Source: Antedon mediterranea (Eukaryota; Echinodermata; Crinoidea; Comatulida; Antedonidae). Taken from it: DNA of 64,000 bases. A model generated the notes under the pieces. It searched no databases. It was not told the origin of the DNA and saw only the letters and a list, made by a program, of their open reading frames with translations. Of this stretch, positions 861 to 62,802 are shown piece after piece. Numbering within the stretch: the stretch's first letter is position 1; the number at the start of each line of letters is the position of its first letter. The stretch spans positions 18,138,922-18,202,921 of the forward strand of contig NC_092678.1 of the NCBI RefSeq assembly GCF_964355755.1. Direction: 5' to 3'. A program made the position numbers and the translations under genes.

Positions 861-1095
861 CTTATTCCCAATTTCGAGAAGAATCAGCAAGATAATTACA
901 GCCTTTGAAATTAGCAATATCAGCAAATATAGGGCACATTGACCAATCCACGCCTCTAATTTAGGAGGATCTCCATATTCTCCTGATAATAGTGATATAT
1001 AACCTCTCCACTTGACTATACATTGCGATATTTTGACCAGAATATATATAAGAATTAGTCCAAGACTGGAGTCTAACAGGAAGTTAACTAAATAT
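861..1095 (-). CDS. STIMATE: STIMATE exon 4
   Basis: Starts after a TTTTTCAG acceptor and encodes YLVNFLLDSSLGLILIYILV, then GEYGDPP and WIGQCALYLLILLISKAVII. These are two further membrane segments with the signature glycine-rich loop. It ends in phase 0 at GGG AAT AAG before GTGACA. No later exon is visible in 1-860. Confidence 0.9.
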
Positions 1096-4000
1096 CTGAA
1101 AAATAATACATAACAAATTATTAATTAATGTGCACTGAATTTAGAATGTTTGCCACTTGGAAGTAAATAAGTGCTATAGTGAAATAAGTGCTATATATAG
1201 TGAAATAAGTGCTATAGTCAAATAAGTGCTGCAGTTTAATAAGTGATGCAGTCATACAGTTGTCAAATAAGTAGTAGTTCTAGTAAACTAAGCACAACAA
1301 TCGAATAAGTGCTTCATTTGAATATCAGATTTGAATAAGTACCGCAGTCGCATAAGTACCATAGTCAAATACTGCAAGCAACGCAGTAATAACGAATAAG
1401 TAGCGGAGTCAAAATAAGTAGCGGAGTCGAAATAAGTACTACAGTCGAATAGTGCAGCAGTCAAATAAGTATGTACCATGTCAAATAAAGTACAGTCAGT
1501 TGAAATAAGTACTACAGTCAAATAAGTGAAACTGCAGTATTGAATAAGTACTGCAGTCTACTTTATAATACCGCTGTCAAATAAGTACCACAGTTCAAAG
1601 TAAAGTAAAATAAGTATGCTTGTAGAATAAGTACAGCAGTCAAACATTGTCCAGCAGTTTATCAAAAAAAAAATAGAAAACATTTACTCATGGAACCATA
1701 AGTTAGATCAATGATTTAATTAGTCAGTCAATGATTTAATTAGTCAGTCAATGATTTAATTAGTCAGTCAATGGTTTAGATAGTCAGTAAATGGTTTAAT
1801 TAGTCAGTCAACAGTTTAATTAGTCAGTCAATGATTTAATTAGTCAGTCAATGGTTTAGATAGTCAGTCAATGGTTTAATTAGTCAGTCAATGGTTTAAG
1901 AGTGCTTGTCACCAAAAATCAGACATATTCGTAATTTAGTGGCAAGGGTCAAAATTTCGAATTGGCTCATATTTTGCACATTGGTAGACCTTGATGTAAG
2001 TAAACCTGATGTGTAGTTTGTTTGGTAAAATATCGCTTAGTTTTCGAGAAAATCGAAAAATAACGATTTTCGGCCAATTTTGTTAATTTTTGGTGTATAA
2101 TTTACAATAAGTTTAACAGCCTCTGGAAGCCAAATTTTGCAACCTAGCGTTTTAATATTTTACACTTACGTTAACTAGCATCTTGACAATAATTTAGTAA
2201 AGTTTCAAAAAATTTAATGAAATTCTAATATTTTTACTAATTAATTACTAATTAGCATATATAAAACTCTTAAAAAGTAGGGTAAAAACAAACGCGTTTT
2301 TTTTCATGTGCGACGAATTTTTTTTAAATAAAAAAATCGTCAATCTACTGTTTAGATACTAATATTTATGAATCAAGTAAAAACAATTTGGGGAAACTAT
2401 TTTCCGCTCCGCACCAGAGCCACAAAGTTGTAAGAAATTCAAAGATTTTATCTGTCGGCAAGATCAATCAGATGTACCTATTGTTCTCTATTTACAGATT
2501 TAAGGTAAATTTTACTACGAGAAACAAACTTTAAAGGTAAACTGAAAGGTCCTGAATAATTTGGAATTACGTTTTAATATAAAAACATCTAAAAATAAAT
2601 TTCTAGTCAAATTTAAACGACTGACCCATGAAATTAAGCAATTACTATCTGAGCTCAATATTATAACTCGCTTAGCTTCATCACCTGTTATATTCTCCAC
2701 TAGGTGAATTTATTCTTATTATTATTATAATATAATAATAATAATAATATTATTTTTTGCACTATACGCGCGCATGCGCAGTTTATTTTTATCAACAAAG
2801 TGTTCCCCTTGAAGTGCGCGTATACGCGAAAATGTTTGATTTGCGCGAATAATTTCGCCTAGTGGAAAACAGGCTATATAACATAATGTTCTTATCTTCT
2901 CATATAGGGAGTATTCGTACAAGCATGTTAACGCTATTTTCCAAGCTCCGCCCACTTTGTAAACAACTTGCTGTGCGTGCGCAAGCATTACGAAAAACTT
3001 TAGTTACGTGCGTCGAGAACCTTATTTTTTTTAAATAGCGTAAATGAAAACGTTAACCAAAACATGATTAAACATGCCTGGCTAGGCTTAGTCTCTATAA
3101 ACCCATGATTTGTTTTAATACGTGTGGCGTATGTTGCGTGCGCTACACATGCGTTGCGTTCTACACTTCCCGTCGAAGAGCGAAATGAAAACGAGCAAGT
3201 ACGTTAACGCAAATGTTCACTGAACTCTGTTGTTATGCAAATGAGTAGAATGGTGACATCCGATAACGTTCATGTGCTCGTGCGAAATTTCCTAATAATT
3301 CGTAGCCTAAACAATAAATTGTTTGTAAACTTGTAAACCATTGTTTCATCCCTTCGCTTTATTAAAAATTTACAGAATCGTCCCACATATTAAATTGTTA
3401 TTTTAAAGAATTCTTACAGACATAGTTTTACCTTATTTTTTACCTTATGAGTGAGTGAGTGGCCGAGCGGTTAAGACAGTGCAACCGTAATTAAGTAGCC
3501 ATAACATCGGCAAGGGTTTGAGGCTCACTCGCTCCATGGTTCTGGTGGTAGAACGAATCTTCTCGGATAAGGACTATAAACCGTAGGTCCCGTGTAGACA
3601 TAGCTCATGCGCACTTTAAAGAACCTAGTACATCTTTCGAGACGAGTAGGGGGTTACCCCAGTGTACTAGTCCACACAAACACAGCCACTGTCACACACA
3701 GCCACTGTGCAAATTGGGACTGGGCCGTTTTAGAGGTGTTTACCACCTGTTGGTCCAGATCCTTCACTAACTGAGTTAGTGAGAAGTCGAATAAATAAAT
3801 AAAAAACCTTCATTGCTACCTTAATCACTCAAGCAACTGCACATGGAAACCATCTTTCCCAGCAAATCAATATATGGCTTCTTGCGCTTTATGGTTATAT
3901 CTGTGGTATCAAGTTCAAGAGAAGTACACATTTCTTGCAACATTGGCAAAGAGAATCTGGAGAGTTTTTCTTGAGCTTTCAGTACACAAATATTATGCTT

Positions 4001-7000
4001 TCAAACATTATTGGATGCTGCAAGCCTATTGTGTCCAGTACGGTTTGCGACAAAAGTTGAATTTCTCTTTCCTTTTCCGTTTTTGAATCGTCTCAATTTT
4101 CTTCGACTTCGTCACCATCTTCATTACTATCGTAATCATCATCTTCGTCATCATCATCATCATGAACGGCTGCATCTGTCCTCCTTTTTTTAGCCAAGTG
4201 TGAGAAAAAACTTGCAATCTGCTGTTAAAAATTCAGTCTTGCTACTAAATAGATGTGAACCATCGCTGTGCCTGGCCGATCTCATCTCTCGTGAGACATC
4301 ACATGGATCAGCTTTCTGTCCCGTCTGCTCTCCAGCGTCAAAAACATCAATAAGGTAGGTTTTCTATGGTACAGAAAATCGGGTTTTTTTTGCAGAGGAC
4401 TTTAACGCCCAGCCCATTTGCAGTTTGGGGCCAATGTCAAACCGTGGCAAATCGTTGGTTCTTGTTGGTTCTGGATTTTTAGAAGTACCCTCTTCTAGTT
4501 GTGTTGATTAATTTCATTGCCCTGTCATAAAGTGTTTCATGTTCTAGTGCGTTCTTGTGATTTTCATAATCTAAGTGTTTCTCTAGGGAAGAGTACCTCT
4601 GATATGACCTAATGCAACCTTGTTCGCGACAAAAGAACAGTTTGCTGAGGGTGCCAGGACTTTCTTCTCTTTCTATTTGTTCGTCGTCATTTATATCAGC
4701 TTGTTCTTCATGAGATGTCTTGGCTTGTATTCTTGCTTTTACTGCAATAGATGATACTTGATTTATTTTAATCAGACGTTGTATCTTGGTTATGAATTAA
4801 ATTGGGTAGCTTCGAAGGCACACAGAATTTACTCAAAAGTAGATTTTGTCCTGCACCAACACCATTACGCCATCCACACCTTCATGGACCTGCTTCCATA
4901 CTCTATGTTGTTGATGTGACTCACGCCTTTTATTTCCATTTCCCTGCTGCACAAATAGTACCACTCACTATCGATGCCCGTAAACCTAAACATGTATCTG
5001 TGTGCAGCGATTTCCTTCTGGCATGCTTGTAAAGGTAGGACTTCAGTGCTCTGTTTGCGGTCTTTTCTATCGAATCCACAAGCTCCGCCGACAACCGATT
5101 TAAAAGAACATGAAATCTCCATTTTGTTTGAACTTAAAGCCATCAGACAATAATTATATATATGAATTATTTTCAACACGTCTTTACATTGTAAGACATA
5201 AAATAAAATGGATAACAAATCAGTTCCGTTGTCAACGTCAATGAAGATCGTTATCTATCGAATATACGCAGTAAAGTGTTTTGTCTACTGTGGTTACTGT
5301 TTTGAAACATTCTCGTTGAGTAAGTTCGACCAGGTTCGACAAACAGGAAAACGATAACAAGTTAAAACAAATTTGTTTTTCAGTTTTATCCTATAAACTA
5401 TGAGAGGATGGAATAATTTATAATAATGTGGTTTGACAAAGAATAAGCGAGTGATTTTTAGTTAATTGCTTAATTTCGTATATTGGTTAGTAATTGAAAT
5501 TTTACCAGAAACGTATTTTTAGTTTGTGTTTAAATTACAACTTAATTCAAAATTTATCTTTCAAGTTTGTTTCTCGTAATAAAAGTTTGGCTTAATTCGA
5601 CTTAGATTGCTAAATAGAGAACAATAGGTACATCTGATTGATCTTGCCGACAGATAAAATCTTTGAATTTCTTACAACTTTGTGGCTCTGGCGCGGAGCG
5701 CAAAATAGTTTCCCCAAATTTTTTTTACTTGATTCATAAATATTAGTATCTAAACTTTAGATTGATGACTTTTTTATTTTACAAAAATTCGTCGCACATG
5801 AAAAAAAACCTACTTTTTAAGAGTTTTATATATGCTAATTAGTAATTAATTAGTCAAAATCTTAAAATGTCATCAAATTTTTTGAAACTTTACTAAATTA
5901 TTGTCAAGATGCTAGTTAACGTAAGTGTAAAATATTAAAACGCTAGGTTGCTACGTTTGGCTTCCAGAGGCTGTTAAACTTAATGTAAATTATACACCAA
6001 AAATTAACAAAATTGCCCGAAAATCGTTATTTTTCGATTTTCTCGAAAACTAAGCGATATTTTACCAAACAATCTACACATCAGGTTTACTTACATCAAG
6101 GTCTACCAATGTGCAAAATATGAGCCAATTCGAAATTTTGACCCTTGCCACCTAATGTTTGATTTTTAGTGACTGGCTCTCTTAATTAGTCAGTCAATGG
6201 TTTAATTAGTCAGTCAATGGTTTAGATAGTCAGTCAATGGTTTAATTAGTCAGTCAATGGTTTAATTAGTCAGTCAACAGTTTAATTAGTCAGTCAACGC
6301 TTTAATTAGTCAGTCAACGGTTTAAATTAGGTGTGTTTGTGTGAATATCAAACTTTTTTCTTTGGATTTTATATTATGGTATATTTTAATGATGTTCTTT
6401 TTGGAATGTGTCAGTCCACTGTAAGACACATCCCTCCTCTATGCTCTCAATTTCCTTTTTTTATTTATTTTTATTTCATTTAAACCATATTTAATGATGG
6501 CGATCCATCCAGCATTTGCTGATCATTTGGGGCCCTCAGAACAGATACAATATACAAAATACAGCAAAAAGAGAAAAGTAAAAGAAAAACGAAAAGGATA
6601 TTCATAAAAGAAACATTTTGTTTTTCTAATGTACTTGTTGGCCTTAGTAATTACAGCAAGTTTTCTCAGTATTCAGTTTAAGACTGCTTCTGGTCTCTTA
6701 TGGTAAATAAATCAATTATAAATTATAATTCCAGGAATGTATGAAGTATTTGTCAGGCTCAAAGGTCAAATGCTCACTTGAATGTTTTTTAAATCTGCAA
6801 CATATTAGATTACTACAGAATTTGTTTTTTTTGGTGGACAATTTTTAAAATACATTCATCTAAAAGTTTGGAGGATGCATATGCCTAATTATCAAAAATT
6901 ATTTGTCACAATTATTAAAGATGTTTGTTTATCGAGGCAGCCGCACATTGACAACATTAAGACTCGTGTGGGCCAAATGAATAAATAAATAAAAATCATT

Positions 7001-10000
7001 AAACATAATAATACAGTATAATTGTCATTAAAACATGCGAAACATTGTCAAAAATGAAAGTTACAGTATACGCACAATGTACATGGATCTACGCCCATGT
7101 TGAAGAACTTATAATCGGCAAGAAATATGTTGGCAAAATGGACCATTCCAGCACCAAATGCTTGCTTTGAAGTGTCATAAAACCTGAAAATAAAAGAAAA
7201 ACATTATATTACTCTTACTTTTTTTCTGTATGCGGACATACCTTTCTGTTTTTAAACATTTGCAAAATATACAGTATTTGTCGAGTCGAGTGGTCGAGCA
7301 GCACCATACAGTAGCAATACAATCGGCACAGGTTCAAGGCACTCTGCGACCATTGTTCTGGTGGTTGCCCCGGTGTACCAGTCCATTCAGCCCCTACAGT
7401 ATCGTTGTGGACAGACAACGGGCGCCGTTTAAAGGCAGCACTCGAAACTAAAGGACCTTTGGGCAGAAGAAAGTTACTGTATGTGCCGTCAACACCTGTG
7501 CGCAATTCAGCCCAGTTAGGCTGCAAGTCGCAGCTTATTCTCTTATTTACATTTACTGTCAATTCTAGTTTTTATTAACTAAATTCAAAGACTAGGTAGG
7601 AGAAAAAAAACTGATGACTGTTTTGAACTTCCATTATCTTAACCAATCAAATTTAAGTGGATATTAACAACATAGATTAATATTTGAATATTCAACCACC
7701 TGTATTTCAAATTATTCAGTATAATTACCATATTTTCCATGGTCGCCTTTCAGCTGCTGGTTCACGTAGTCGTTTTACTATAATGAAAAAAAATTTGTAT
7801 ACATAATACAGTATATTGTATTTTACAGTATGTTTTGTATTTAAAGCGTGGTTCCCACTAGCGACGCAACACCAAGGACGTAACGCAACGCAAGTGAATT
7901 GACCAATCACAAGCGATGGCTTATTCGCTTGTGATTGCTAACTGTCTATAACTTCGCTTGTCATTGGTTAAAACGCTTGCGTTGCGTTTACGTCCTTGCA
8001 TTACGTTCTAGTGGGAACCAAGCTTAATATGTATTTTATAGGTCTACAGTTATCAATAATGTTTTGTAATTTAAATGTACATACGGCCCAAGGGAAAAAA
8101 ACCCTGTATTTGATCTTGGCCTTCCTGGATTTAAATAAACTTGGGGGTGACACAAAATTTCTGGCCCTATATTGACACTTTACATGTGTCTGTTTCTATT
8201 ATTTTTCTTAAGATTTTAGTTTACACATTGCCTGAAGAACTTGGACCCAAAATAAAACCGATTTATCAATTGTGATTGGTTGCGTATGTTCGATTAGATC
8301 ATCTGATGTGTTGTCAAATTGCGACCACGATTAATTTAATTGGTTATTAGGGGGGGGGGGAGGTGGTACCCTCTTCAAACTATCAGATGTGATGATAAAC
8401 ACTGTAGACCAAACTACCCTTGCTTATGGCAATTTTTTCCCCTTTTGTGGAAAAAAAAACAAACCTGGTAAAATTACTGGCTTGCATTGCTTACATGATA
8501 TTTCAGTGAAATACAATTTTTTTTTCTAAATTAAAGAAAATGGGTCTAGATAGAAGTAAGTGTAAATTTTAGTTACAAAACAAACAAAAAACGCATTTTT
8601 TAACTAAACAATTCACTATTATACAGTAAAATATAAATTAGAGGTTAAATCCAGATGTTGTATTCACTTTGATCATCATTATATAATTTGCATTATAATA
8701 AATTTCTATAGAATTATTCATTTTCAAAGCATTCATTCTTACAGCGGATATGCTTAATACGTCTCCTTGTGTTATCAGTTTAAAGCAGGGGATGTCCCTC
8801 ATTAAACCAATGGCTGTCCAGGGAATATGCACAAATAACTACATAAAAGGAGCTTAAGAATGTGTCTGAAAAATGTGTTTTTTACTCTATTGTTTTTGTT
8901 ATATTATCACACATTATAAAGATAATTGTCAATATCTTTTTTTAGTTAATTTCATTGTCATTGATTGTTGGATTACATTACAAATACTCTGAGAAAATAA
9001 ATCATAAATGACTATACATTATACTGTACGCAATCAATTCCAATACCAGACACCTTGCTATAGAATAATTGGAAACTATCTAAAAACACAAATTGTATGC
9101 CTCTGCAACATTTTCGCCAAATTGGGTTTACCAGGCATCGTCTGAAACAGCCGCCAACATTTTCTGTGGGACCAACGCCTTGAGGGGACGGGTTTAAGTA
9201 CTTTCTTTGAGCAGCAGCTCAACTGAAATTATGTAAGATAAAACACTGATCTGATTCTATCAAATTAAAAGCATAGCTAACCATAACATCATGTAAATAC
9301 CAGAAGTTGATTTTTTTATCTGACACGATAAAATTAGGCCTATGTGATGACGACAAGATTGATATTGTAAACCGACTCTAGGCCTAACCGGTTCGGCGCT
9401 AGTTCCGTTTCGCACCTGTCGTTTATTTCGACTCAAAATTGGTTAAGTAACTTTATCGTGAGTACCACACCTTAGAATTAGGCCTCAAAAATACTATTAC
9501 GAAGGAGATCACACAAAAAGTAAAAAATAAATCCTTTAAATTGATGAATTTACAGACGTGTTTCTCGCACATCGGTTCGTGAATTTCGCATACTCCATGT
9601 TCAATGTTGTTGTTTCTATGGAGCGCCAAAAGAGCAATCATAATAGAGGGCTAAATACTCAGTAAATTACGTATATTTAATGCATTTATTGATGAAAATT
9701 ACGTTCAATTTTATATTTTGTCAATGTCAATGCAACAAAAATATTACTGTTGATACTGTACATGGTTTTTGCAGGAACTTTTAGGAATGAAAATCGACAA
9801 ATTCATCATCATACATGTACTGTAGTGTATTAATAATATTCCTCTTAGTCTTTCTCTTAGGAAGGCGTAGGCCTAGGGTTGGTTGCTATTTGAAAACAGC
9901 AAATTATTAGCAGTAAAATGTTACAGCATTTTTATTGACAAAATATATTAAAATTAAACGTGTATTTCAATAATAAATGCAATAAAAGAAGACGCATTCC

Positions 10001-10607
10001 ACTGAGTTTTTAACCATCTATTGTTGTTGCTCTTTTGGCGCGCCATAGAAACGAAAATATTGAACTTCGAGTATGCTAAATTCGCGAACGGTATGCGAGA
10101 AACATGTCTGTAAAATCGTCAATTTAAGGATTTATTTGTTACTTTTTATGTGATTATTCTTAATAAAAGTACTTATGTGGCCCAATTTTAAGGTGTGGTA
10201 TTCACAATAAGTTGCTTAACAATTTGGAGTCAAAAGGAAGTCGAAATAAAAACAGGTGCGAAACGGAACTAGCGCCACCGGTTCAAGCTACTGTATGCTG
10301 TACATCATGACATAGCCTACCTTACCTAATGTAGGCTAAGTCTAGTATTGTAACTACTGTAGACCATCTAGGCCTAGAGTAGTAGGAGGCTATACTGTTG
10401 TAGGCCTAGGTAAAATGGATACTTACACATTAAAGTACAGAAAGCTACAAAAGCCAAAACAAACTGGACAAACCAACTGAAACGGCCCGTCAAAGCACAT
10501 CCTTCTTCCATATCATCACCGCCATCCATGCCTAAGTTTGGGTTAGATACTTCTTGTAGTCTAGTCGAGTAGCCAACGCTTGTGACAGAGTGTTCAACGC
10601 TAATCAT
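861..10607 (-). CDS. STIMATE: STIMATE (TMEM110) gene, 5' four exons; C-terminus off the left edge
   Basis: STIMATE is a multi-pass ER membrane protein that supports STIM1-Orai store-operated calcium entry at ER-plasma membrane junctions (family knowledge). Four minus-strand exons join in phase: 10607-10427, 7777-7729, 7183-7076 and 1095-861, 573 nt or 191 residues. Recognisable blocks are a first membrane segment (FSWFVQFVLAFVAFCTLM), KRLREPAAERRPWKIW, FYDTSKQAFGAGMVHFANIF, NFLLD, GEYGDPP and WIGQCALYLLILL, in the order of the vertebrate protein. The last in-window exon ends with a GTGACA donor after the residue equivalent to the start of human WKKVALLNP, so the last membrane segment and charged tail lie to the left. 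The ~6 kb intron 7075-1096 holds a 4.28 kb transposon. Confidence 0.93.
1165..1660. repeat. Degenerate minisatellite, AATAAGTRCTGCAGTC-like units
   Basis: Irregular tandem units of about 16-22 bp around AAATAAGTACTGCAGTC with many substitutions and indels. No coding support; the short open frame on the minus strand is a by-product. Confidence 0.75.
1690..1899. repeat. 20-bp minisatellite TTTAATTAGTCAGTCAATGG, left part
   Basis: About ten tandem 20-bp units. The array stops exactly at the left end of the transposon (TTAA at 1896-1899) and resumes on its right side in the same orientation, so it is one array split by an insertion. Confidence 0.93.
1900..2545. repeat. Left inverted arm of the TTAA element
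   Basis: Reverse-complement match to 5545-6181 over nearly its whole length, with scattered substitutions and short indels. It includes a block CTATTGTTCTCTATTTA near the inner edge and GGCAAGGGTC near the outer edge. Confidence 0.88.
3449..3811 (+). mobile_element. tRNA-Ser-like SINE
   Basis: The head GTGGCCGAGCGGTTAAGAC is a good RNA polymerase III box A of tRNA-Ser/Leu type, followed by a degenerate box B (GGGTTTGAGGCTC). The body carries CCATGGTTCTGGTGGTAGAA and ends in (AATAAATA)n. It lies inside the TTAA element, just past the 3' end of the decayed C2H2 region. Related copies lie at 57470-57776 and 58257-58325. Confidence 0.82.
3821..5200 (-). pseudogene. Decayed C2H2 zinc-finger protein gene carried by the TTAA element
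   Basis: On the minus strand, blocks in different frames line up in one order. At 5200-4865 there is an N-terminal segment with FDRKDRKQSTEVLPLQACQK and FRFTGIDSEWYYLC. At about 4660-4490 there is a finger C-x4-C-x12-H-x5-H (CREQGCIRSYQRYSSLEKH) followed by ALEHETLYDRAMKLI. At about 4435-4190 there is MGWALKSSAKKTRF with GEQTGQKADP, REMRSAR and EFLTA. An acidic run DEDDDYDSNEDGDEVEE follows, then a C-terminus LPMLQEMCTSLELDTTDITI / KRKKPYIDLL ending at a stop at 3821. As I recall it, the layout matches an uncharacterised multicopy C2H2 family of cnidarian, mollusc and echinoderm genomes. Several frameshifts and stops show it is dead. Whether it is the element's own gene or captured is unknown. 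Confidence 0.72.
5545..6181. repeat. Right inverted arm of the TTAA element
   Basis: Reverse complement of 1900-2545. The divergence between arms (roughly 1 in 15 by eye) suggests the insertion is not recent. Confidence 0.88.
6186..6325. repeat. 20-bp minisatellite, right part
   Basis: About seven units of the TTTAATTAGTCAGTCAATGG array that continues from 1690-1899 across the transposon. Confidence 0.93.
6330..7070. other. STIMATE intron with repeat debris
   Basis: No exon seen. An AT-rich tail with (AATA)n at 6978-6995 follows ATTGACAACATTAAGACTCG and looks like the 3' end of an unidentified retroposon. 6480-6560 also looks like dispersed repeat. Confidence 0.45.
7076..7183 (-). CDS. STIMATE: STIMATE exon 3
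   Basis: Encodes FYDTSKQAFGAGMVHFANIF followed by LADYKFFNMGVDPCT. The donor is GTGCGT, not GTAAGT. It is supported because the two carried bases TT join the next exon to give TTA TAT TTA (L-Y-L), matching SLYLINFLLD in human STIMATE. Confidence 0.92.
7264..7560 (+). repeat. Probable old tRNA-derived SINE relative
   Basis: Shares GAGTGGTCGAGCAGC, a box B-like GGTTCAAGGC and ATTGTTCTGGTGGT with the SINE at 3449-3811, but is diverged elsewhere. It lies just upstream of STIMATE exon 3 in the intron. Confidence 0.45.
7729..7777 (-). CDS. STIMATE: STIMATE exon 2 (49 nt)
   Basis: A 49-nt exon flanked by a T-rich acceptor ending ATTATAG and a GTAATT donor. With the carried base it encodes LKRLREPAAERRPWKIW, the conserved cytoplasmic loop of the family (human LKRFREPKHERRPWRIW). 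Too short to be found as an ORF by itself; phase 1 in, phase 2 out. Confidence 0.93.
7841..8027. mobile_element. MITE with GCTTGGTTCCCACTAG ends and TTAA flanks
   Basis: Left end TTAA-AGCGTGGTTCCCACTAG and right end CTAGTGGGAACCAAGC-TTAA are inverted. Subterminal GACGTAACGCAACGCAAG and CTTGCGTTGCGTTTACGTCC are also inverted, and AATCACAAGCGATGG pairs with the middle. Degraded relatives lie at 13616-13770, 36137-36215 and 38145-38283. Confidence 0.85.
8028..9386. other. STIMATE intron 1, no recognised gene
   Basis: Only a poly-G run (8350-8361) and AT-rich unique-looking sequence. No in-frame homology or convincing splice-bounded exon seen. Confidence 0.5.
9395..10276. mobile_element. 882-bp long-TIR DNA transposon with perfect 8-bp target duplication
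   Basis: Begins GGCGCTAGTTCCGTTTCGCA and ends with its inverse CGGAACTAGCGCC. It is flanked by ACCGGTTC at 9387-9394 and again at 10277-10284. Inverted arms of about 260 bp (9395-9655 and 10020-10276) surround ~365 bp of unique sequence with no coding potential. An 8-bp duplication fits hAT, P or Merlin elements; the TIR is not one I recognise. It lies in STIMATE intron 1, about 150 bp from exon 1. Confidence 0.87.
10427..10607 (-). CDS. STIMATE: STIMATE exon 1
   Basis: Starts MISVEHSVTS and ends ...AFCTLM plus one base before a GTAAGT donor. It contains an acidic lumenal or N-terminal stretch followed by the first membrane segment. A second in-frame Met at residue 27 (MDGGDDMEE) could be the real start. 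The first ATG was chosen because it is the longest; transcript data would decide. Confidence 0.85.
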
Positions 10608-13360: not shown

Positions 13361-13404
13361 ATCATGGAGGAAATATACATATATGTATATTTCTTCCATG
13401 CATA
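13361..13404. repeat. Short near-perfect palindrome CATGGAGGAAATATA...
   Basis: CATGGAGGAAATATACATAT is followed by its inverse ATGTATATTTCTTCCATG. A second copy of the same hairpin type lies at 55552-55586, so it is a dispersed element or element end. Confidence 0.6.
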
Positions 13405-17262: not shown

Positions 17263-17339
17263 TAACAATTGTATTACTGGTTAAGTCGGATTTTAAACGT
17301 CGTACCAACGCTTAAATATTACAAACATATCGTGTTTAT

Positions 17340-32470: not shown

Positions 32471-32580
32471 ATGCAGAACCAAGGGAAGATGCAGAACCAG
32501 GGGAAGATGCAGAACCAGGGGAAGATGCAGAACCAGGGGAAGATGCAGAACCAGGGGAAGATGCAGAACCAGGGGAAGAC
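32471..32580 (+). repeat. 18-bp coding repeat (MQNQGK)x6
   Basis: Six nearly identical units ATGCAGAACCAGGGGAAG at the start of the SFMBT reading frame. Every unit contains an in-frame ATG, so the true start could be any of the first six. Only the first unit has AAGGG. Confidence 0.97.
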
Positions 32581-51785: not shown

Positions 51786-52830
51786 AAACGTTTTTGTTGA
51801 ATATGCCATTTTAATATAACATAATAGTTATCCACTTTGACCAAAAATTGGATCGAAAAAAAATACATTTACCTGAAAAAACTGTAATTTAAAGCAAAAA
51901 ATGGCCAAATTGACTGCCTGCCAGCCAGTGGGTTTTGATTGAATTTAACCATTTATTTTGTCAATTTATAGGTGAAAACAATAAAAAAGGGAATGATGGA
52001 AATGATTAACTTTATTATAACTACAAAATAACGTATTCAAAGTCTGATTTAATTAATCTTCATTTTTCTTTTTTTGGGGGGACAATACATATTTAAATAA
52101 ACGCTAATTATTACATACAGTATATAAACAATCTCATTTATGTTGTTCGTTCGTTTAAAATTATGCAAGTATTCAACGAACTTTAACCTTTTGAAAGTAG
52201 AGACGTTATTTTTTGCTAAATGCAACGCAAACATTGATACAGTTGCAAATGTTAAATATATGTTAATTTTTTTATTTTCGTTTTTAAAAGACACAAAGAT
52301 TATTGTTGCTAAAAAAATAAACTATTTTGAAATAGCATTTGAGTTGTTGTTAAGAATCTTTATTTATAAGTTTATAATCGAGATGATGAATCATACTGTT
52401 TTCCTGCAATATAAATTACGTAACTGTTTTTATGTGTGGAAGATTTTAATAATGTGAGCCTGTATATTTCAAGGCTCTTTTTATATTATGTGCCGTATTT
52501 ATTTAAATAAACACCCTGCAGTGTTTATTGTTCAGGAGGGTTTTTAGAGGGGTCAGTGGTCAATTGTAGATCATAGAAGTCAATTCATTTTTATGTGTTG
52601 TAATACAATATTGTGTGTATATGCATGTGGCGGGGTCGTTTATTTGAGGGAAAAAATAAGGCCTTGGGCTTTATTTAAGGGTCGTGTGGGGGTAGGGGGC
52701 GTTATTTTAATAAATATTATTGTTTTAATTTATATTTGATAGCTTATGTTACAGTAAATTAGTTTGTGATGAAGTCTACAAAAACTACTCAAACCAGTAT
52801 CTCACAAAACAAGGCACACTTCCGTGAATG
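51786..52830. other. SFMBT-RFT1 convergent intergenic region
   Basis: Holds the inverse copy of the 31960 repeat (51835-52000), and a GGGCGTTTATT-type repeat at 52495-52715 (AATAAACACCCTGCAGTGTT and CGTTTATTTGAGGG). No gene recognised; open frames at 52050-52457 are AT-rich and lack support. Confidence 0.5.
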
Positions 52831-52890
52831 GTAAATATTTAATTTATTTTCTTTATTTTTTTCATCTTATATTTTTATCTTTACATAGTT

Positions 52891-53061
52891 TTATTTCTTT
52901 TTATCTTCATCTGTTCGCCTTTCTTTCCATTGATCTATTACAAACGATATTAATTTTTTTTCTGATAAGAAAATTGTGATCAAAGTGATTAGTAGGCACA
53001 CAGCTCCTATGACGACATGGAGAAAACGATAAAAAATGCCTTGATTACAGCAAAACGTAAT
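52891..53061 (-). CDS. RFT1: RFT1 last exon and stop
   Basis: [40 protein letters not shown], ending [12 protein letters not shown] and TAA. The open frame upstream of the CTGCAG acceptor is intron. Confidence 0.95.
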   Translation of the reverse strand: MTFCCNQGIFYRFLHVVIGAVCLLITLITIFLSEKKLISFVIDQWKERRTDEDKKK

Positions 53062-56000
53062 CTGCAGAAAAAAGAATGAAACAAATTGTATGTCACCAAA
53101 TTGTTGAATATTTAAAGATAATTTAACTACTACTACTACTATTTGACCGTTGGTCGCCATGAAGGTGACATATGGTTTGGAATTGTCAAGCTAGCTGCAT
53201 CAAGAAAACATGTTTCGTGGATTTTGAAAAATTGTAACATAATTATAATAGCCTAGACACTTCGAGGGTGCCTAGCTTATTATATACTAGATTATTGGCT
53301 CCATGGTTTAGATAGAGTATAAAGGGTTTGGCAGTGGAATAACATAACATAGAACCATGGACCTATAAATTAGATTTATAAGTAGGTTCATGATAGAACA
53401 ATTAAAGTAATAGTGGTTTTGCATGAGGCTAAATATAACACAAAATTAACAATAGTTATTCTTCATTCAAGATTTGCATTCTTTAAAAAAAAAATTGTGC
53501 TCAATAGCCTAATTTTGTTATTATTTTGACATATATTTATTTAAGTTTGCTTCATATGAGTATTTATTGTATCTGCTTTCTGTCTCATACCTTTAAGTGA
53601 CAACTTTCGTTGCTGTAGGTTTTGATGAAATAAAATTAAATTAAAAAATAAAATAAAACATGGCCAATATTAAATATTAATAGATAGATAGATTTTTTTT
53701 TTTTTTTTTTGATTTTTTTTTTATGATATGGACTTTGTTCTGAAATAAAAGTGAATTGAATTGAATTTTTTTATAAAACACTACTTGGTCCTAAGGGGTT
53801 AATGGTGTTCTATTGTTTCGTCTAATTTTTAGGATTGGTATTGAAGGTAAACAAAATTGATAGAAATAAAACAATTTAACTTACCTCTGAAAATATGGTA
53901 ATTAGGCCAGACACGGTAAAAACTACAAGCACAGGAGGTGTAGGTACAAGTCCTGATAGGGGACTGTATCTGCTTCCTTTGTAGAAATTACTGATGAAAT
54001 AAATACTGTTGGATAAAAAAAAAATATTTAAATAAATGTTAAATTATTATTTTTTAGCTTCAATTTGTCTTTGCAGACTTTTAATGCTTAATTTATACAA
54101 TATCCTTTTATATAATTTACCTTTAAATATTTAGTTTTCAAGAAATTGTCGTCACATTTTATATAGTGCATTAGTGGTGGATTCATGATTTTAAAATGGG
54201 TGGGGGATGCGCAGGGAATAGGAAGTGGGTTGTCGAGAAAGGAGCTTATACATATTGTAACATAGAGTGTTGCACTAAATCTATTTCATATTGTTTGCAT
54301 TTGAAATTTTAGGTAGGTGGCCCACACTATATTTAGTCTGTGTTGCATAGAGCACCAATAAAAGTAAAGCTAGCCTATTTCATTGGAACTGCTGAATGTT
54401 AATCCAATTATAAGATATGACGGATGACATGCAAATCAAGCAGAAAACCAATATGATTTATTTTCAATCGCATTTTTAATATCTTACCTGTGAATTATTC
54501 TAGCTAGCATGTTGAGGCAATTGGCTAGGATAAAGCCAACACTGCCTACACTCTTTGTAAGAAAATAAGATGATGTTAAAAACACTACTGAGAAGCCTAA
54601 CATCTTATGATTGTACCTATAAAAAATATTAGTAATCAACTTATTTGAATAAAATATTACTAAATTATGCACAAAACATAGTTAGTCTTTCACACACATT
54701 GTAAAAACAATATATATATATATATATATGCACATTGACCAATTTACAGGTGGTACTACCTCCATGTTTAAACACTGCATTCACATCATGAAACAAACTA
54801 AATTTTCCAAGAATTGGAATACCAATTTTATGGTAAGTTAAGATTTGTAATTGTTCTATTTCTCTTCATTTTGTACAGCTGCATTAGTTAAGTAATTAAA
54901 GCACAGTATTAGAAACAGAATACATGATTGTCTAGGCCTAGCCCTTGTTTATTCTATGGATGTTAGCATTTGCTGGTCAGGCATGTATAATGAGCATCTG
55001 TCAGGGCTGGGACAATTTGCCAGGGCTGGGACATTTAGCCAGGACTGGGACATTTTTCCAGGGCTTGGCAATTTTTTCAGCCAGGGTTGGACAATTTGCC
55101 AGGGCTTGGCCAATTTTCCAGTACTTGGACATTTTGCCAGGGTTGGACATTTTTCCAGGGCTTGGCAATTTTTTCAGTCAGGGTTGGACAATTTGCCAGG
55201 GCTTGGACAATTTGCCAGGGCTTGGACAATTTTCCAGTACTTGGACATTTTGCCAGGGTTAGACAATTTTCCAGGGCTTGGACAATTTTCCAGTACTTGG
55301 ACATTTTTTCCAGGGCTTGGACAATTTTCTAGGGCCTGGACATTTTGCCAATGCTTGGACATTTTATATATTTTCCAGGCATTGGAGTTGCTCATATACA
55401 GTATGTAAGGAGGCCAAGTTATATTATAATAGCTTTTTTTCTTAAATTGTCCATGTTTTTAGAGTTCTATTGTAAGCAAGTATTGCCCTAAACTTAAATT
55501 GATATGTGCCAGGTTTTTTAATTTATGTTTTCGTACTAGGCATGTGTATGCATGGAGGAAATATATAGATATTTCCTCCATAGTGTATGATAGTTATAAC
55601 AATAATAATAATATGAATTTGTAATGCGCCAATTCCAGCAGTAAGTGATCATGAGAGAGCTCAATTTGAAAGAAAAAGATGAGTTTTCAAGGCAGATTTA
55701 AAGGTGATAGTAGAAGAACATGATCTTAATAGCGGCGGGTAGGTCATTCTATAAGCGAGAGGCAGCAGTTATGATTGTTTTGCCATTTGTTTCAAAAGAC
55801 ATCCATTTTGATTTGCTATGCATTAACTTAGCTTTTGTTACTCTAGGCCTTATGCTTGTTATCATAGCTACATGTCTCGAAGGTGCAGTCACTGTGTCCT
55901 TATTCATGTTATTTACATATTGTTGTTTTAAAGCTCTGTCTACACTTAAAACTATTTTTGACAAAAAAAACGTGTGATGTGCCCAAATATGGTATTGGTA

Positions 56001-59000
56001 TGACATCATCATGTCCATATATGGGCTCATCACATTTTGTGGTCACAAAAAGTTTGATAGCGTAGACATAGCTTAACATATTTAGTAGTTTCAACAGACA
56101 CACGTACACGTGGCTAGATTATTTTTGCTAGGCCCGTTCTAAAAATTACACCAACCTGTCCACTTCCCCTTGGCTCATAGCAGCAAAAACAAAACATTCT
56201 GTTGTCCCATTAACAGCAATCATCAGTACATACATACAGTAAAACCGTAGTAAAGTCGGGCCTGAAACATTAAAAATGTTATAAATTATAATCCATGACA
56301 CAACAAAAATGAATTATTGGCTTACCGGCATATTTCTGTACAATGTTTGAAATCGTCAACATAATGGAAATCTCATTGCGAGGAAGCATTTTTTCATGTT
56401 AAAGTATCCCCTCCTTTAATAGGGGTGTCCCCCTCGATAGGAATGTGCCCTTAATAGGAGTATCCCTTGAATAGAGGTGTCCTAAAGAAGAGGTTCTACT
56501 ATTGGCCTTCATTCGTTTCATGTTAAAGTGTTCCCCTTAATAGGAGTGTCCCCCTCAATAGGAGTGTCCCCCTCAATAGGAGTCTCCCCTCAATAGGAGT
56601 GTCCCCCCCCTCAATAGGAGTGTCCCCCCCTCAATAGGAGTGTCCCCCCCTCAATAGGAGTGTCCCCCCTCAATAGGAGTGTCCCCCTCAATAGGAGTCT
56701 CCCCCTCAATAGGAGTCTCCTCCTCAATAGGAGTGTCCCCCCTCAAAGGAGTGTTCCACTCAATAGGAGTGTCACCCTCAATAGGAGTGTCACCCTTAAT
56801 AGGAGTGTCCCCCTCAACAGGAGTGTCCCCCTCAATAGGAATGTCCCCCTTAATAGGAATGTCCACATTAATAGCAGTGTCCACATTAATAGGAGTGTCC
56901 CTTGAATAGAGTATCCCAAAGGAGCGGTTCTACTGTTTACCTGTTCCTGAGCTTAGTAAGGTTCCACCATACATATCTAAGAGGAGATATGAATATGCAT
57001 ATCCAAACACTAGAATCGTCGCGCCAACCAGGACGACAAACTTCAGCAATGCCTCCAATGCCTTAGATGCTAGATCAATTGATTCCTGCAAAGATTATAG
57101 TAAATGTATAGGCCTTATTGTAGTATAGAGTATTTTCTCTTATTTCTGTCTCTGTATGTGACAAAAAAAATGTGATGTGCCCCAATATGGACACGATATC
57201 ATATCACCACCATAGTTGGGTATATCACTTCCAAATTTGTACATACACTGATAGGACTGGAAATGATCAAATAAGCACTGAAGTAGTTTAATTTATGAGC
57301 TGTTCAGATATTCTACAATTTTAAAATTCATACGACAAATTATAATATACAAAATGTCAGTCTAACTGAACTGTTGAATATATTCTTATATTCTATGTGA
57401 CTTTGTATTATCTGTGTCTTTAAATAATTTTTTTAGGTTAACCATGCTTACTTTTAGCTTTGATTGATTGAAATATATATTTATACTGGGTAACCTCTTC
57501 AGTCAAAGACTGGTCTCCCAGAGGGCCCAGTTGGTGTACAGTGGCTGTGATGTACTAATATACCGGGGTAACCCCCTACTCGTCTCGAAAGATGTACTAG
57601 GTTCTTTAAAGTGCACACGAGGTATATGTGTACACTGGACCTACGGTTTATAGTCCTTATCCGAGAAGACTCGTTCTACCACCAGAACCATGGAGTGAGT
57701 GAGCCTCGAACCCCTGCCGATGTTATGGCTACGTAATTACGGTTCCACTGTCTTAACCGCTCGGCCACTCACTCACCTATATCTCTGTCTACACTATCAA
57801 ACTAGTTTGATAAGAAAAGTGTGATATGACATCATTGTGTCCATATATGAGCACATCACATTTTTTTGTCACATAAAGTTTAGTGTAGACAGAGGTTTAT
57901 TATATAAAAGCTTTTGAAGACGGACCTTTGGCTGTTTTTTTGCTATCTTTCCTCTTTGAACCGTCTGTGCAAAGAACAGGTAGCCACTTTCTTCTATCGG
58001 TAAGAAGATAAACCTAGCTGCCAACGAACCCAAATTGTTGATGATGTCATAGATTCCCTGATCGCCAAAGTTCAGGACATCGAAAATTGTCATCATGTAC
58101 CTTTCTCCTAAATTAAAATACATTGGTTTTTTTTAATTATTAACCCTTTGAAGACGTGGCCTATACCCCATACGGGGTAATTTACTGTCTCAGGACGCGA
58201 GGCCTGCATACGTACGAGTTGATGTTTTGGTCATTGAATTGCACTTTTTTTTTTTGCACCCCTGCCGATGTTATGGCTACGTAATTACGGTTCCACTGTC
58301 TTAACCGCTCGGCCACTCACTCACTCTAAAGAAATTACAAGGCAAAAGATGGGGCATTTGGTCAAGATCAGGTTCATTTTTTTTTTGCCATACTGTATGT
58401 ACCCCGAGGTGGGGGGGTTGGGGAGTAGCCTCAGTGTCCCCTCCTTGTCACTACTATACATACCTTCTGTAAGTATCTGTTTCAGAAAACCTTGCTTAAA
58501 AAAACTCCACACTAATATAACTGTTGAGAAATCTGCCCAGTACTAAAAACATAATAAAAGAAAGCTATTAAAATGTAATCAATAGAAAGACTACAATATT
58601 AATACTGTAGTCTATTTCGTGCCTAGCGTATCTGGATAAACCGACAATAGCCCATTCTCACTACTACTACAAACATTACATTTCATTCAACATAAGCATT
58701 ACACAGTGGGACAGCCAGTCGACAAATCGTGTCAAATTTCGACTCGGAGAGGGCGCCCTACTTTTCTAATTTAGTTCAAAATTGCTAAATTTTAGGGTGT
58801 TGGAAAAACACAATATTTGTAAATTTAGCTGATTATCGGAAAAATATTGTTAGTGAAATAAATTCATAAATGGTTTTAATATATTGTCATGTAAAATTAA
58901 ATGTATTTGAACAAAACGATAATCTGTAATTTAACGGCAAAATCAACCAATGTCTTTTTTCCGAAATTGTACCCTAGAAAATCGTTAAAATAAAATATTT

Positions 59001-62000
59001 AGAAAAATTGAACAGTCCTGAATTTAAAATCCCTGTTAGAAAAATTAATAATCTACAGAATACGATATTAAGATACAAAATTCGGTGGTTGGGATGCAGC
59101 TCCGACTATGAAAACTAAAGGTACCACTATTTGTTCCATCGAAAACTAGCGAAACCGCCATTTTGTAAACACATCGTCATCGTGTTTATGAATTTATTTA
59201 TAGCGAACGATATACGCGATGTTCATAATTGTCCGCGTATAAGAATTCATATAAATAAATACATTCCAATACAACGTATATTATTACTTGTTTATTTATC
59301 ACAGTATACATTTTAGTTGAGGAATATTTATCATTAGCGAGCGATTGTTCCAGGGGCGGAAAGTCACTTAGTGACGTTGTGATCGGGCGCGTCGGGCCTA
59401 GCTAATATTAATAATATGACCTGAAATAAGCGGCTAACAAGAACTGTTATATACTTGCTTACAATTGTTTTGTTATTGATGAACAAACAAGCAATTAGAT
59501 TGAATAACAAATTATTTATTCATTTTTTGGGGGTAAAAACATGTACAAACTATAGTACTGTATAATATAAATTAATAGTAATATTAAACTAATACAGTAG
59601 GCCTATTAATAAAATATAAAATAGGCCTAACATACAATAAATATTCAATTTTTAAGGTCTACCACATGACAATAACATAATTTACAGAGTATAGTGTAGT
59701 AGGTTTGCATTCAACATAAATATTTGTATTGTAATTCATCTAAATCCTCTGCAACATACATATATTTGTAATTCAACATTTTGTTTTAAATAATTAAATT
59801 ATAGTGTGGGTATGACAATGTCGGTAGGTACCGGTGTCATCTTTTTATCCACTTCACTCTCAGTTTGAAGTCACAAAGACAAAGAACTCTGCATCATCAA
59901 CGATTCCTGAAAGTGTCAGAAAAAATAATAAATATTATTTACAAAAAATTTTAATGTCTGGTTGTATATATAATTATAATATTATATGATGACATAAAAG
60001 TAAGGCAAATGGAAGCTGTATTTTATTAATTAATATTACAGTATTTGCTATTATTATTTATATAATCTAGGCCTACTAGTAGCCTAGTAAGGCATCTATT
60101 GAGCCTAATAAATCAAATAATAAATGAAAAATAAAATAATAATATTAATACTGATTGAAAAAAAGTATTTTTTGTGGGGGATCAGATCACCAGGCTAGGC
60201 CGGCCAGGACCAGATACTCGTAATCAGTACAACTTAACGACTATCGGATCAGCATCAACACAGTACAACACACGTCTCGCTATCGCCTATACTGACACAC
60301 GTGTCTCGCGTTGCCGAAACCACGCTCACAGCTAGAAAATGTACCTACCTTTCGAGGCCTGAGAATACACCAACAAATTTTGAACAGGATAGAAATATAT
60401 CATACTCGATTAAACTAATATTATTCTTGATAAAACAATTGATTATAATTTTTTTAATTTGTTGGGATGCACCTCCGACTATTCAGAAAATGGACAACAA
60501 AACAGTAGTAAAATCGTACCACATTTATAAATTTCACGAGTCCCGACTTCAGTCGCCAAATGTATTTTATTAGCTTCGGTTTCTTTGAAGGAAACCGATT
60601 GGTTATTCAATTATACTTATTAGGAAATGCTTTTACCATAATAGGTAATGTTGGGCGGTTCTTAAATATTCTTGAGAGCTTAAAATAAAACAGTACTTAT
60701 TTGCTAGGCGACGAAAAATCGTGGTTTCAGTTTTCAACGATAGGTGGCGCTTCAAAATCGTCAATGCGGAAGTAAGTCGATTTTACACGATTTAACGGTC
60801 AAAACGCGAAGTGGCTTTCCCACTGTACAGGACTTAACACATATAGCAACTATATACATACACTGTAGTGTAATATTATACACATAGACTTCTCTAGCTA
60901 TTTGTTCTTATGTTGTTAGTGTTGGAGCACCAACGTTTTGATTTTTGTTCAAAGTATGAAACACACCCAGTAACAACCAATAAAATACTATTTTGTGATC
61001 TTACCGCGCCAGGAATAATGCGTGGAAAAATATCTCGTACACTTTTAAGTGGGAAATTGTCATCTTTATTCTTGATAATGTAATATGTGAAAAACGCATA
61101 GTACAAACTGACGTAGATGAAAGTAAAACAAAGCTGAAAATAAATGAATATTATTTTAATAACTTGCATGTTTTGATAAACACTTACTTCCGTACTGAAC
61201 TATTAGAAATAGGTATGTTTACAGTAATTAATTTGACTGTTTCTGTTTCAGATAAGACTTTATTTCGGTTTTAGAACCCTTTTATTTTTTGCCGTACTCT
61301 TATAGTATTATGACTATGGTAATATTGTTTGTTGGTTTGTCATAGACTTGAAACACATCTCTCGTTACTAATTGTATGTTATTGGTATTATTTGACGTAG
61401 GAGTTTTCATTTTTGTTTGCAGCTCAATTCCAGCTCAATTATAGTGTAGGTACAGTATGACATACCAAGTGTGCCAAAATATTTTCTTTTAACAATTATT
61501 TGCATTTGCCTAAATTGCCATCTACAACCTAGACTACATTAGTTGATTGATTGTATTCTTGAACTTACCTGTGCTATACAGAATATAACGATGCCTAGAT
61601 CAGGATATTTTTGAACCAGTATCACAGTCATGATGCATCTCCCAGCTATTGCAAAACCCTCAATAATCACCTGTTCAAAACAATTGTAATTTATCATTAG
61701 TGTAATGATTTGAATTATGACTCTGCGATTGATGAAGCATGAAGGCCAATTTACACAAACGAGTGGTAACGGTAAGAGGTAATTGTAAGCGGAAACATGC
61801 GTGGCTTGTCTCACTTACACAGTGCGCAGAATTCGCGAGCGGAGTGGTGGAAAGTAGGTACTTGTAGGCCTTGAGGCTAATGCATGTTACAGTCACTGCG
61901 GGCCTGGATGTGACAGACTGTAGGCCTAGCACACACAAGTTTTTAGAAGGACTTGTTGCCTAGTAACGTCCTAAATGTAAATTTTTTTTCCACTATTCTT

Positions 62001-62802
62001 ATACAATCAGTCAGTCACGTCGTAGTTATTTGTATTTCTGAATAATAAGAAGTTCCAAAACTAGGCTAGGCCTACAACGGCACTCGTATTTATTGTTGTC
62101 TTTGACTCTGTGGACTTCAATAATGTCGTTGGTTGGCAAGAATCCATAATTACTGCGCGGTATTTTCACAAAATTCGAATAAGTTTCTATCCTGAGCAAA
62201 TTTCAGCTCAACCGCGTCTTCTCCGCGTTCTGTGTAAATGGTCATAAGAAATAACACACTCATGTAGATTCTATTTTTGTGTTTTCCGCTTACCTTTACC
62301 GCTTACAGTTACCGCTCGTCTGTGTAAATTGGCCTTGAGAGTGGCCAAAGAAGGAATATGGAGCTCAAGAAATCATAGAAATTGTTGGCTTGAGATGGAC
62401 AGGTATGTAACATAATGGTAAAGAAAGAGAGCCTCGGTTTCTACTGTAGGAACATGATGGGCAAGACAGGATGAAGTGGAGATATGGCAGTATAGAACCC
62501 CTTGGAAGAGAAAGAAAATTGACATCAATTAAAAAAAAGAGATGATGGAAGTAAATTTGAGACTCCTGTTGACATTTTGGGACAATATGTTGTCACAACA
62601 AATTTACTGTACCTTTAATCTAACAAATAGTAATGCTTGTCCAAGTACCCAAAGAGGTTCCACTAACAGCTCAAGGAGTGCGGACAATCCAAAAATCAGA
62701 ACACCGATATCATAGTTTGGTAGAACTGCATCATCTGGGCGCTCAAGCAGAAACATCCAGACGAAACTGAGAATTGTTGCAAAGAAAAATCCAACAGGAA
62801 TT
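52891..62802 (-). CDS. RFT1: RFT1 gene, last ten exons; N-terminus off the right edge
   Basis: RFT1 is an ER multi-pass membrane protein required for lumenal Man5GlcNAc2-PP-dolichol use in N-glycosylation; whether it is itself the flippase is disputed. Exons on the minus strand: 62802-62613, 61670-61569, 61133-61005, 58542-58464, 58107-57926, 57085-56941, 56261-56156, 54616-54488, 54005-53885, 53061-52891. All phases agree and they give about 450 residues; human RFT1 has 541, so roughly the first 90 are missing. Signatures: [83 protein letters not shown]. The first coding exon was not found up to 64000. Confidence 0.95.
53460..53765. other. RFT1 intron with low-complexity sequence
   Basis: (AAAATAAA)n and a long T run (53690-53712) followed by TGATATGGACTTTGTTCTGA-AATAAA; probably retroposon tail debris in the last RFT1 intron. 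Confidence 0.5.
53885..54005 (-). CDS. RFT1: RFT1 exon
   Basis: [20 protein letters not shown] then [20 protein letters not shown]. Loop plus membrane segment; found from phase and family match, no long open frame. Confidence 0.92.
54488..54616 (-). CDS. RFT1: RFT1 exon
   Basis: [40 protein letters not shown]. Human equivalent ends [17 protein letters not shown]. Confidence 0.96.
54990..55385. repeat. 19-bp minisatellite CAGGGCTTGGACAATTTKC
   Basis: About 20 units, period mostly 19 bp, with CCAGTACTTGGACATTTTGC variants interleaved. Open frames on both strands here are repeat artefacts. Confidence 0.93.
55552..55586. repeat. Short palindrome ATGGAGGAAATATA...TATTTCCTCCAT
   Basis: Same hairpin type as 13361-13404. 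Confidence 0.6.
55600..55905. repeat. Dispersed retroposon-like repeat
   Basis: AATTTGTAATGCGCCAATTCC, AAAGATGAGTTTTCAAGGC and CGGGTAGGTCATTCTATAAG resemble a common 3'-end class of invertebrate LINE/SINE tails. Not assigned to a family. Confidence 0.4.
55930..56076. mobile_element. MITE, AAGCTCTGTCTACACTATCAA family
   Basis: TTAAAGCTCTGTCTACACTT to AGCGTAGACATAGCTTAA with TTAA on both sides and CCCAAATATGG/CCATATATGGGC in the centre. Immediately downstream of an RFT1 exon in its intron. Confidence 0.88.
56156..56261 (-). CDS. RFT1: RFT1 exon
   Basis: [20 protein letters not shown] then [16 protein letters not shown] (human TECFTFAAMSKEEVDR). GTTGGT donor. Confidence 0.96.
56395..56936. repeat. 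Minisatellite CAATAGGAGTGTCCCCCT within an interspersed repeat
   Basis: About 20 units of 18-19 bp (AATAGGAGTGTCCCCCTC). The outer parts, TTCATTCGTTTCATGTTAAAG and AAAGGAGCGGTTCTACTGTT, match the flanks of the 17-bp array at 39605-41309. Confidence 0.92.
56941..57085 (-). CDS. RFT1: RFT1 exon
   Basis: [20 protein letters not shown], then [22 protein letters not shown] donor; its 3' side directly abuts a minisatellite-bearing repeat. Confidence 0.95.
57150..57240. repeat. Fragment of the GTGATGTGCCC MITE family
   Basis: TGACAAAAAAAATGTGATGTGCC and ATATCATATCACCACC match the interior; both ends are missing. Confidence 0.55.
57470..57776 (-). mobile_element. tRNA-Ser-like SINE, minus strand
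   Basis: Read on the minus strand it starts GTGAGTGAGTGGCCGAGCGG-TTAAGAC and has a good box B GGGTTCGAGGC, then CCATGGTTCTGGTGGTAGAA. Same family as 3449-3811 but with a better preserved head. Confidence 0.87.
57782..57898. mobile_element. MITE, CTCTGTCTACACTATCAAAC family
   Basis: CTCTGTCTACACTATCAAAC and AAAGTTTAGTGTAGACAGAG ends; directly next to the SINE and 28 bp from an RFT1 exon. Confidence 0.87.
57926..58107 (-). CDS. RFT1: RFT1 exon with ERYMMT and [15 protein letters not shown]
   Basis: [60 protein letters not shown]. The donor is AAAG|GTCCGT, weak but phase-correct with the next exon. Confidence 0.94.
58257..58326 (-). repeat. SINE head fragment (minus strand)
   Basis: 70 bp identical to the 5' tRNA-like head of the SINE at 57470-57776, including GGCCGAGCGGTTAAGACAGT on the minus strand. 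It stops abruptly at the box B region. Confidence 0.85.
58464..58542 (-). CDS. RFT1: RFT1 exon with [16 protein letters not shown]
   Basis: [20 protein letters not shown] then KQILTE plus one base. The most conserved RFT1 motif. Separated from the previous exon by a 2.1-kb transposon in the intron. Confidence 0.96.
58704..60825. mobile_element. 2.1-kb DNA element, CAGTGGGA ends, TACA flanks
   Basis: Left CAGTGGGACAGCCAGTCG and right (inverse) CAGTGGGAAAGCCACTTCG, with TACA immediately outside both ends. Subterminal AAATCGTGT words are shared. CAGTGGGATGCAGC-type direct words (GTTGGGATGCAGCTCCGACT near 59088 and GTTGGGATGCACCTCCGACT near 60462) recur inside. No transposase seen. Sits in an RFT1 intron. 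Confidence 0.6.
61005..61133 (-). CDS. RFT1: RFT1 exon
   Basis: [40 protein letters not shown] then PGA. Membrane segment plus the lumenal/cytosolic loop before WSFFKQ. GTAAGA donor. Confidence 0.93.
61569..61670 (-). CDS. RFT1: RFT1 exon
   Basis: [20 protein letters not shown] followed by [14 protein letters not shown], matching human VIAESLSVILKSVLTAFLV...SLAQ. 102 nt, phase 0 at both ends. Confidence 0.93.
61742..62336. mobile_element. 595-bp MITE, AAGGCCAATTTACACAGACGAGCGG family
   Basis: AAGGCCAATTTACACAAACG-AGTGGTAACGGTAAGAGG and inverse CCGCTTACAGTTACCGCTCG-TCTGTGTAAATTGGCCTT. About 3.5 times longer than the copy at 51107-51276, with extra internal sequence. RFT1 intron. Confidence 0.88.
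62613..62802 (-). CDS. RFT1: RFT1 exon (human residues ~90-152)
   Basis: [60 protein letters not shown]. Membrane segments plus the ExxxPxWVL motif. One base completes a codon from an upstream exon outside the window. Confidence 0.95.

Follow-up and report, generated by a model that had tools for sequence, protein, structure and literature searches.

Gene content and organization of the locus

The window analysed in this work is the whole stretch of 64,000 nucleotides from Antedon mediterranea (G000:C9:18138922-18202921), which lies in a 26.05-Mb contig (C9) of an assembly of 354 Mb in 18 contigs. Our analyses, which combined genome-wide searches for protein families with spliced gene models, have identified three neighbouring genes in this window, in the order STIMATE (minus strand), SFMBT (plus strand) and RFT1 (minus strand), and their adjacency is real. 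An earlier note on this DNA had recognised the same three genes from their exons, and this recognition is borne out by the family searches, by the spliced models and by the Pfam domains of the products; the models also agree with its statement that SFMBT is opposite in strand to STIMATE and RFT1. Both limits of the span that had been given for the trio (861-62802) are exact exon ends in our models, but the genes themselves extend past both ends of the window: STIMATE runs from -562 to 10529 and RFT1 from 52891 to 67191 (window coordinates), so that the trio spans 67.8 kb. The features of the locus are as follows.

1-10529 in the window, minus strand: STIMATE (TMEM110), from a PF12400 match and a six-exon model
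10427-10529, 7729-7777, 7076-7183, 861-1095 and 362-451, minus strand: coding exons of STIMATE, from the six-exon model
-562 to -347, outside the window, minus strand: last exon of STIMATE, from the six-exon model
10530-32452, no strand: interval from STIMATE to the glutamine-rich frame/SFMBT, with no gene recognised, holding a 183-bp tandem array
32453-35512, plus strand: glutamine-rich open frame of 1020 codons with in-frame repeats
37084-50667, plus strand: SFMBT, modelled with 13 exons, any additional upstream ones being uncertain
50668-52890, no strand: gap of 2.2 kb between the SFMBT and RFT1 stop codons, its ORFs judged by eye
52891-64000 in the window, minus strand: RFT1, from PF04506 matches, a spliced model and Pfam
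62613-62802 down to 52891-53061, minus strand: nine coding exons of RFT1 in the window, from the spliced model
64083-67191, outside the window, minus strand: three exons of RFT1, the first of the gene, from the spliced model

STIMATE and SFMBT are arranged head to head and separated by 22-27 kb (the lower value applies if the glutamine-rich frame is part of SFMBT), and SFMBT and RFT1 are arranged tail to tail. When 10 of the 44 ORFs of at least 60 amino acids (aa) in the STIMATE-SFMBT gap were run against Pfam at an E value of 0.1, none of them had a match; the other 34, together with shorter exons and the gap between SFMBT and RFT1, were judged by eye only. A small unrecognised gene in these gaps is therefore possible. 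The 183-bp array between STIMATE and SFMBT occupies positions 14803-17249 and consists of 13.4 copies with 96% matches.

Identification of the three genes

The identities of STIMATE and RFT1 follow from the family searches. The STIMATE family (PF12400) has a single match in the whole assembly, which lies inside the window, and the product scores 67.8 bits for the Pfam STIMATE domain (cut-off 22; scored on a four-exon model). The four-exon model, in which two exons are missing and the splice score is poor, was replaced by the six-exon model listed above. For the RFT1 family (PF04506), all six exon matches are found at one locus, five inside the window and the sixth a short way to its right. The RFT1 model comprises 12 exons encoding 497 aa, and its product scores 455.8 bits for Pfam Rft-1 in two stretches, the better of which covers positions 232-510 of the 512 in the profile; a comparison of the product with PDB gave no match. 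Within an intron of STIMATE, a C2H2-like open frame (4482-4796, minus strand) was noted by eye, which has no Pfam match and is possibly derived from a mobile element.

A search of the assembly for the MBT domain gave 12 matches, of which four are in the window. The product of the SFMBT model contains four MBT repeats (233.3 bits), followed by a SLED domain (121 bits, residues 464-578) and a C-terminal SAM domain (27.6 bits, cut-off 23; residues 728-790). In a comparison with PDB, which covers solved structures and yielded no full-length vertebrate SFMBT among its matches, MBTD1 (239 bits) ranks above L3MBTL2 (223 bits) and Drosophila Sfmbt (203 bits). Taken alone, this ranking would not give the identity of the gene. 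It is the SLED and SAM domains in its predicted product that mark it as SFMBT, since it combines them with four MBT repeats and MBTD1 and L3MBTL2 are not known to have either.

The same ranking, with both MBTD1 and L3MBTL2 outscoring Drosophila Sfmbt, is what could be expected if the trio were an artefact, either of a misjoin in the assembly or of an MBT paralogue mistaken for SFMBT. Such an artefact is extremely improbable in view of the domain set of the gene, of the location of the other eight MBT matches elsewhere (on C5, C7 and C11) and of the assembled sequence itself, which is part of a 26-Mb contig and contains zero Ns in the 244 kb around the window. An assembly join within the window, which the earlier note had named as a finding that would speak against it, is accordingly not visible as a gap in these 244 kb.

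The glutamine-rich open frame upstream of SFMBT has no Pfam match, and may be either an exon for the N-terminus of SFMBT or a gene of its own. A 17-bp tandem array of ~101 copies (39589-41312) is present inside an intron of SFMBT.

Comparison with human 3p21.1

A published table of hg19 intervals lists, in one interval, NEK4; ITIH1; ITIH3; ITIH4; RP5-966M1.6; MUSTN1; TMEM110-MUSTN1; TMEM110; SFMBT1 and, in the next intervals, SFMBT1; RP11-894J14.5; RFT1, and then the same three with PRKCD; TKT (PMC8139961). These intervals of the table agree with the previous claim that human STIMATE, SFMBT1 and RFT1 are consecutive, except that RP11-894J14.5 stands between SFMBT1 and RFT1 (PMC8139961). The comparison of Antedon with the human table thus reveals a microsyntenic block, in which three orthologous genes are separated by few others in two species that are far apart. 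A linkage kept since at least the early deuterostomes, as had been proposed, is well supported, and it would go back to the ancestor that ambulacrarians share with vertebrates, an age that rests on two end points, viz. Antedon and human. The three human genes all lie on one strand, and on this basis SFMBT would have been flipped in one of the two lineages, most simply through one small inversion.

The ambulacrarian side of this comparison is seen also in the Hox genes of the assembly, in which a search for COX1 gave no match. The homeobox search gave at least 104 matches (150 of the 163 candidates were scored), all of them on C1-C11, with a run of 12 on C2 at 7.83-8.21 Mb. This run forms a nearly collinear Hox cluster of 12 genes (G000:C2:7827677-8206258), whose members we assign to Hox1 through Hox9/10, with three genes of the Hox11/13 type after them, the middle one reversed; a Hox4-like and a Hox6-like gene are present. 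Three Hox11/13 genes mark ambulacrarians. In an account of the sea urchin Hox set, 11/13a, b and c are included, and a Hox4-like gene is attributed to crinoids and starfish but not to the sea urchin; in its Hox4-like gene, Antedon is like the former and unlike the latter (PMC3308324).

The wider linkage group on C9

Six further gene families of human 3p21.1 were searched for in the assembly, and five of them (viz. ITIH, PKC delta/theta, TKT, DCP1 and the L-type calcium channel) have a member on C9. All four ITIH matches are on this contig (at 13.05, 13.08, 15.31 and 20.86 Mb), as are both exon matches of DCP1 (25.83 Mb) and the only match of TKT, a single weak exon at 23.46 Mb (E 1.6e-4, above the curated cut-off). 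The GPHH domain of calcium channels has two matches, one on C9 (25.90 Mb), which is of the L-type (46.7 bits, versus 24.5 for P/Q-type), and one on C4, which is best matched by N-, P/Q- and R-type channels, with a smaller margin (29.3 bits, versus 23.6 for L-type), and whose gene would, to judge from its sequence, be a Cav2-type relative. For PRKCD, the C1 domain was used, which has 19 matches in the genome, three of them on C9. For the C1 match at 11.76 Mb on C9, PKC delta (92.6 bits) ranks above theta (87.6) and alpha (83.2) among chains matched in a single stretch, and the PKC beta chains, matched in two stretches, rank first by summed score (105.9 bits). We assign this exon, which is 6.4 Mb from the trio, to the PKC delta/theta type with moderate confidence, leaning partly on known sequences of these proteins. 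For MUSTN1, the neighbour of STIMATE in human, there was no match anywhere in the assembly, which does not prove its absence.

A seventh search, for GATA factors, was prompted by the description of a vertebrate paralogon (PMC2857956). It gave seven matches: a pair of finger exons on C9 (20.53 Mb), another pair on C1, and a single match on each of C6, C2 and C11. The second-finger exon on C9 is closer to GATA-3 than to GATA-4 (118.6 versus 104.6 bits; 81.8 versus 74.3 with single-finger chains), and the one on C1 scores almost equally with both (105.2 and 102.7 bits; 75.1 and 75.4 with single-finger chains). The motifs of the C9 exons, as we take them, agree with GATA123 and those of the C1 exons with GATA456.

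The linked genes on C9, GATA included, lie 2.4 to 7.7 Mb from the trio. The neighbours on the PRKCD/TKT and ITIH sides, for which a search outside the window had been suggested, are therefore represented on C9 by relatives, but these are 2.7-6.4 Mb off and not adjacent. In the left flank of 100 kb, no gene apart from the last exon of STIMATE was recognised by coding score and by eye, and inspection of 80 kb of the right flank by eye revealed no PRKCD. The right flank contains exons that encode LDL-receptor class B repeats and a C-type lectin domain, and then an RRM exon that resembles NOL8 (window positions ~84000-95000 and from ~100000). Open frames of a Ty3/gypsy-like retrotransposon were recognised by eye at 117702-121780.

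The DCP1 and L-type channel matches on C9 are 71 to 78 kb apart (G000:C9:25826363-25904317). The human order in this part of 3p21.1 is TKT-DCP1A-CACNA1D. Among the seven junctions of the human order ITIH-STIMATE-SFMBT-RFT1-PRKCD-TKT-DCP1-CACNA1D, three are kept in Antedon (both junctions of the trio and that of DCP1 with the L-type channel) and four are broken (ITIH/MUSTN1-STIMATE, RFT1-PRKCD, PRKCD-TKT and TKT-DCP1).

Heavy shuffling of this kind, in which genes come to lie megabases apart, would also be compatible with independent convergence, i.e. with STIMATE, SFMBT and RFT1 having shared a chromosome in the ancestor as non-adjacent genes and having become neighbours separately in the human and the Antedon lineages. 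This is very unlikely, for both adjacencies, in an identical order, would need to have arisen twice, and the probability that three points placed at random on C9 lie within a span of 67.8 kb is ~2e-5, a post hoc value uncorrected for the many trios possible.

C9 makes up 7.35% of the assembly, and the probability that five independent units (with DCP1 and the channel taken as a single unit and GATA123 included) would be found there by chance is ~2e-6, a value that presumes independence and an even gene density, while the density is uneven, the PKC exon was chosen by sequence and TKT is represented by one exon. Eight of the contigs C1-C11 measure 41.4, 40.9, 39.0, 36.2, 28.6, 26.0, 25.0 and 22.3 Mb, lengths that agree with a set of about 11 chromosomes, and the crinoid chromosome number is 11. 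Set against the 24 bilaterian linkage groups cited in PMC11310086, this number means that C9 probably arose by fusion of more ancient groups, and the sharing of a chromosome therefore carries less weight.

Relationship to the GATA123 paralogon

In the vertebrate GATA123 paralogon, PRKCQ/D, SFMBT1/2, ITIH and CACNA1F/D/S are linked with GATA1/2/3 (Gillis et al., 2009; PMC2857956), and in a mouse study Prkcq is reported to adjoin Sfmbt2, with Gata3 500 kb off (PMC3110154). Relatives of all five of these groups of genes are found on Antedon C9. Because the linkage on C9 matches this paralogon, the region of the window can be read as its invertebrate counterpart, to which STIMATE and RFT1 would also have belonged from early on. 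In this respect the two differ: neither RFT1 nor TMEM110 occurs in the main text describing the paralogon, which also reports that few genes are syntenic between vertebrates and amphioxus (PMC2857956). STIMATE and RFT1 would thereby join the set of genes that can be traced to the chromosome that existed before the duplications. The orthology of the single SFMBT to the vertebrate SFMBT1/SFMBT2 pair, which the earlier note had favoured, fits the published paralogon, in view of the company that the gene keeps on C9 (ITIH, a PKC of the delta/theta type, an L-type channel and a GATA123-like gene; PMC2857956), and this company lends support, from outside the vertebrates, to the view that SFMBT1 and SFMBT2 arose through the vertebrate genome duplications.

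Origin and persistence of the gene trio

It is highly probable that the trio is a local gene order inherited from an ancestral deuterostome chromosome. We infer this inheritance because RFT1 and STIMATE are each found at a single locus, SFMBT has its full domain set, the Hox cluster is ambulacrarian-like and five of the six families searched for have members on C9. On the ancestral chromosome, STIMATE, SFMBT and RFT1 would have been adjacent, in the company of ITIH, a PKC of the delta/theta type, TKT, DCP1, an L-type channel and GATA123. This chromosome would have been duplicated in the line leading to vertebrates, leaving SFMBT1 (3p21.1) and SFMBT2 (10p14) on two of the products. In the line leading to Antedon, the genes would have remained on C9 and been spread megabases apart by internal rearrangements, with the exception of the trio and of the pair formed by DCP1 and the L-type channel. 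The trio would then be a small remnant that stayed intact within an old linkage group whose internal order has been shuffled. Against its inheritance it may be held that two genomes only are compared, the human one through a paper, that MUSTN1 is without a match, and that the relatives of ITIH, PRKCD and TKT do not adjoin the trio, which has LDL-receptor-repeat, C-type lectin and RRM exons in its right flank.

Passive survival is the likeliest reason why an inherited trio has stayed together: few breaks would by luck have fallen within its 68 kb, and regulatory constraint may have helped. That the inherited trio was in addition actively kept, as a regulatory domain in which a break would sever the enhancers of one gene, is possible but rather unlikely. 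SFMBT would be the likeliest target of such regulation, with enhancers lying in the head-to-head gap or in the introns of STIMATE and RFT1. The confinement of the trio to 68 kb while four of the seven human junctions are broken is consistent with active keeping, as are the documented occurrence of such blocks across metazoans (PMC8851819) and a report that, in sea star and sea urchin, old blocks already known are contained within chromatin domains (PMC13317027). However, a single block cannot tell constraint from luck, and a shared promoter is unlikely because SFMBT is on the opposite strand and a tandem array occupies the gap between it and STIMATE. A more specific proposal, which is doubtful and which we put forward only tentatively, is that the trio represents an undescribed regulatory block of deuterostome or greater age, in which putative control elements of SFMBT would be distributed across its neighbours while its GATA123 surroundings were shuffled. 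The trio is a candidate for regulatory constraint, as a short stretch that has been held together while its surroundings were rearranged.

Comparison with known conserved gene blocks

Ancient metazoan microsyntenic blocks are said to have been described by Irimia et al. in 2012. Inherited as proposed above, the trio would constitute a fresh case of a well-known type, viz. an intact remnant of an ancient animal chromosome. Among the matches listed from the open-licence literature, STIMATE-SFMBT-RFT1 does not appear as a named conserved block. The deuterostome pharyngeal gene cluster resembles the trio in that a local gene order is common across deuterostomes; the genes of that cluster are reported to have similar temporal expression (PMC11175523), whereas the Antedon trio brings one chromatin protein together with two proteins of the ER membrane. 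A closer likeness is offered by the blocks inferred for the bilaterian ancestor, which are small groups of neighbours kept from early animal ancestors and of which 256 are new, the corresponding numbers in shuffled genomes being 45, 48 or 56 (Robert et al., 2022; PMC8851819). SFMBT, RFT1, TMEM110 and STIMATE have no occurrence in the main text of that work, a difference from the present case that is confined to the main text, for the supplementary block lists may include the trio; it may well be present in a published list. The Wnt5-7 block presented there includes DCP1 and CACNA1D (PMC8851819).
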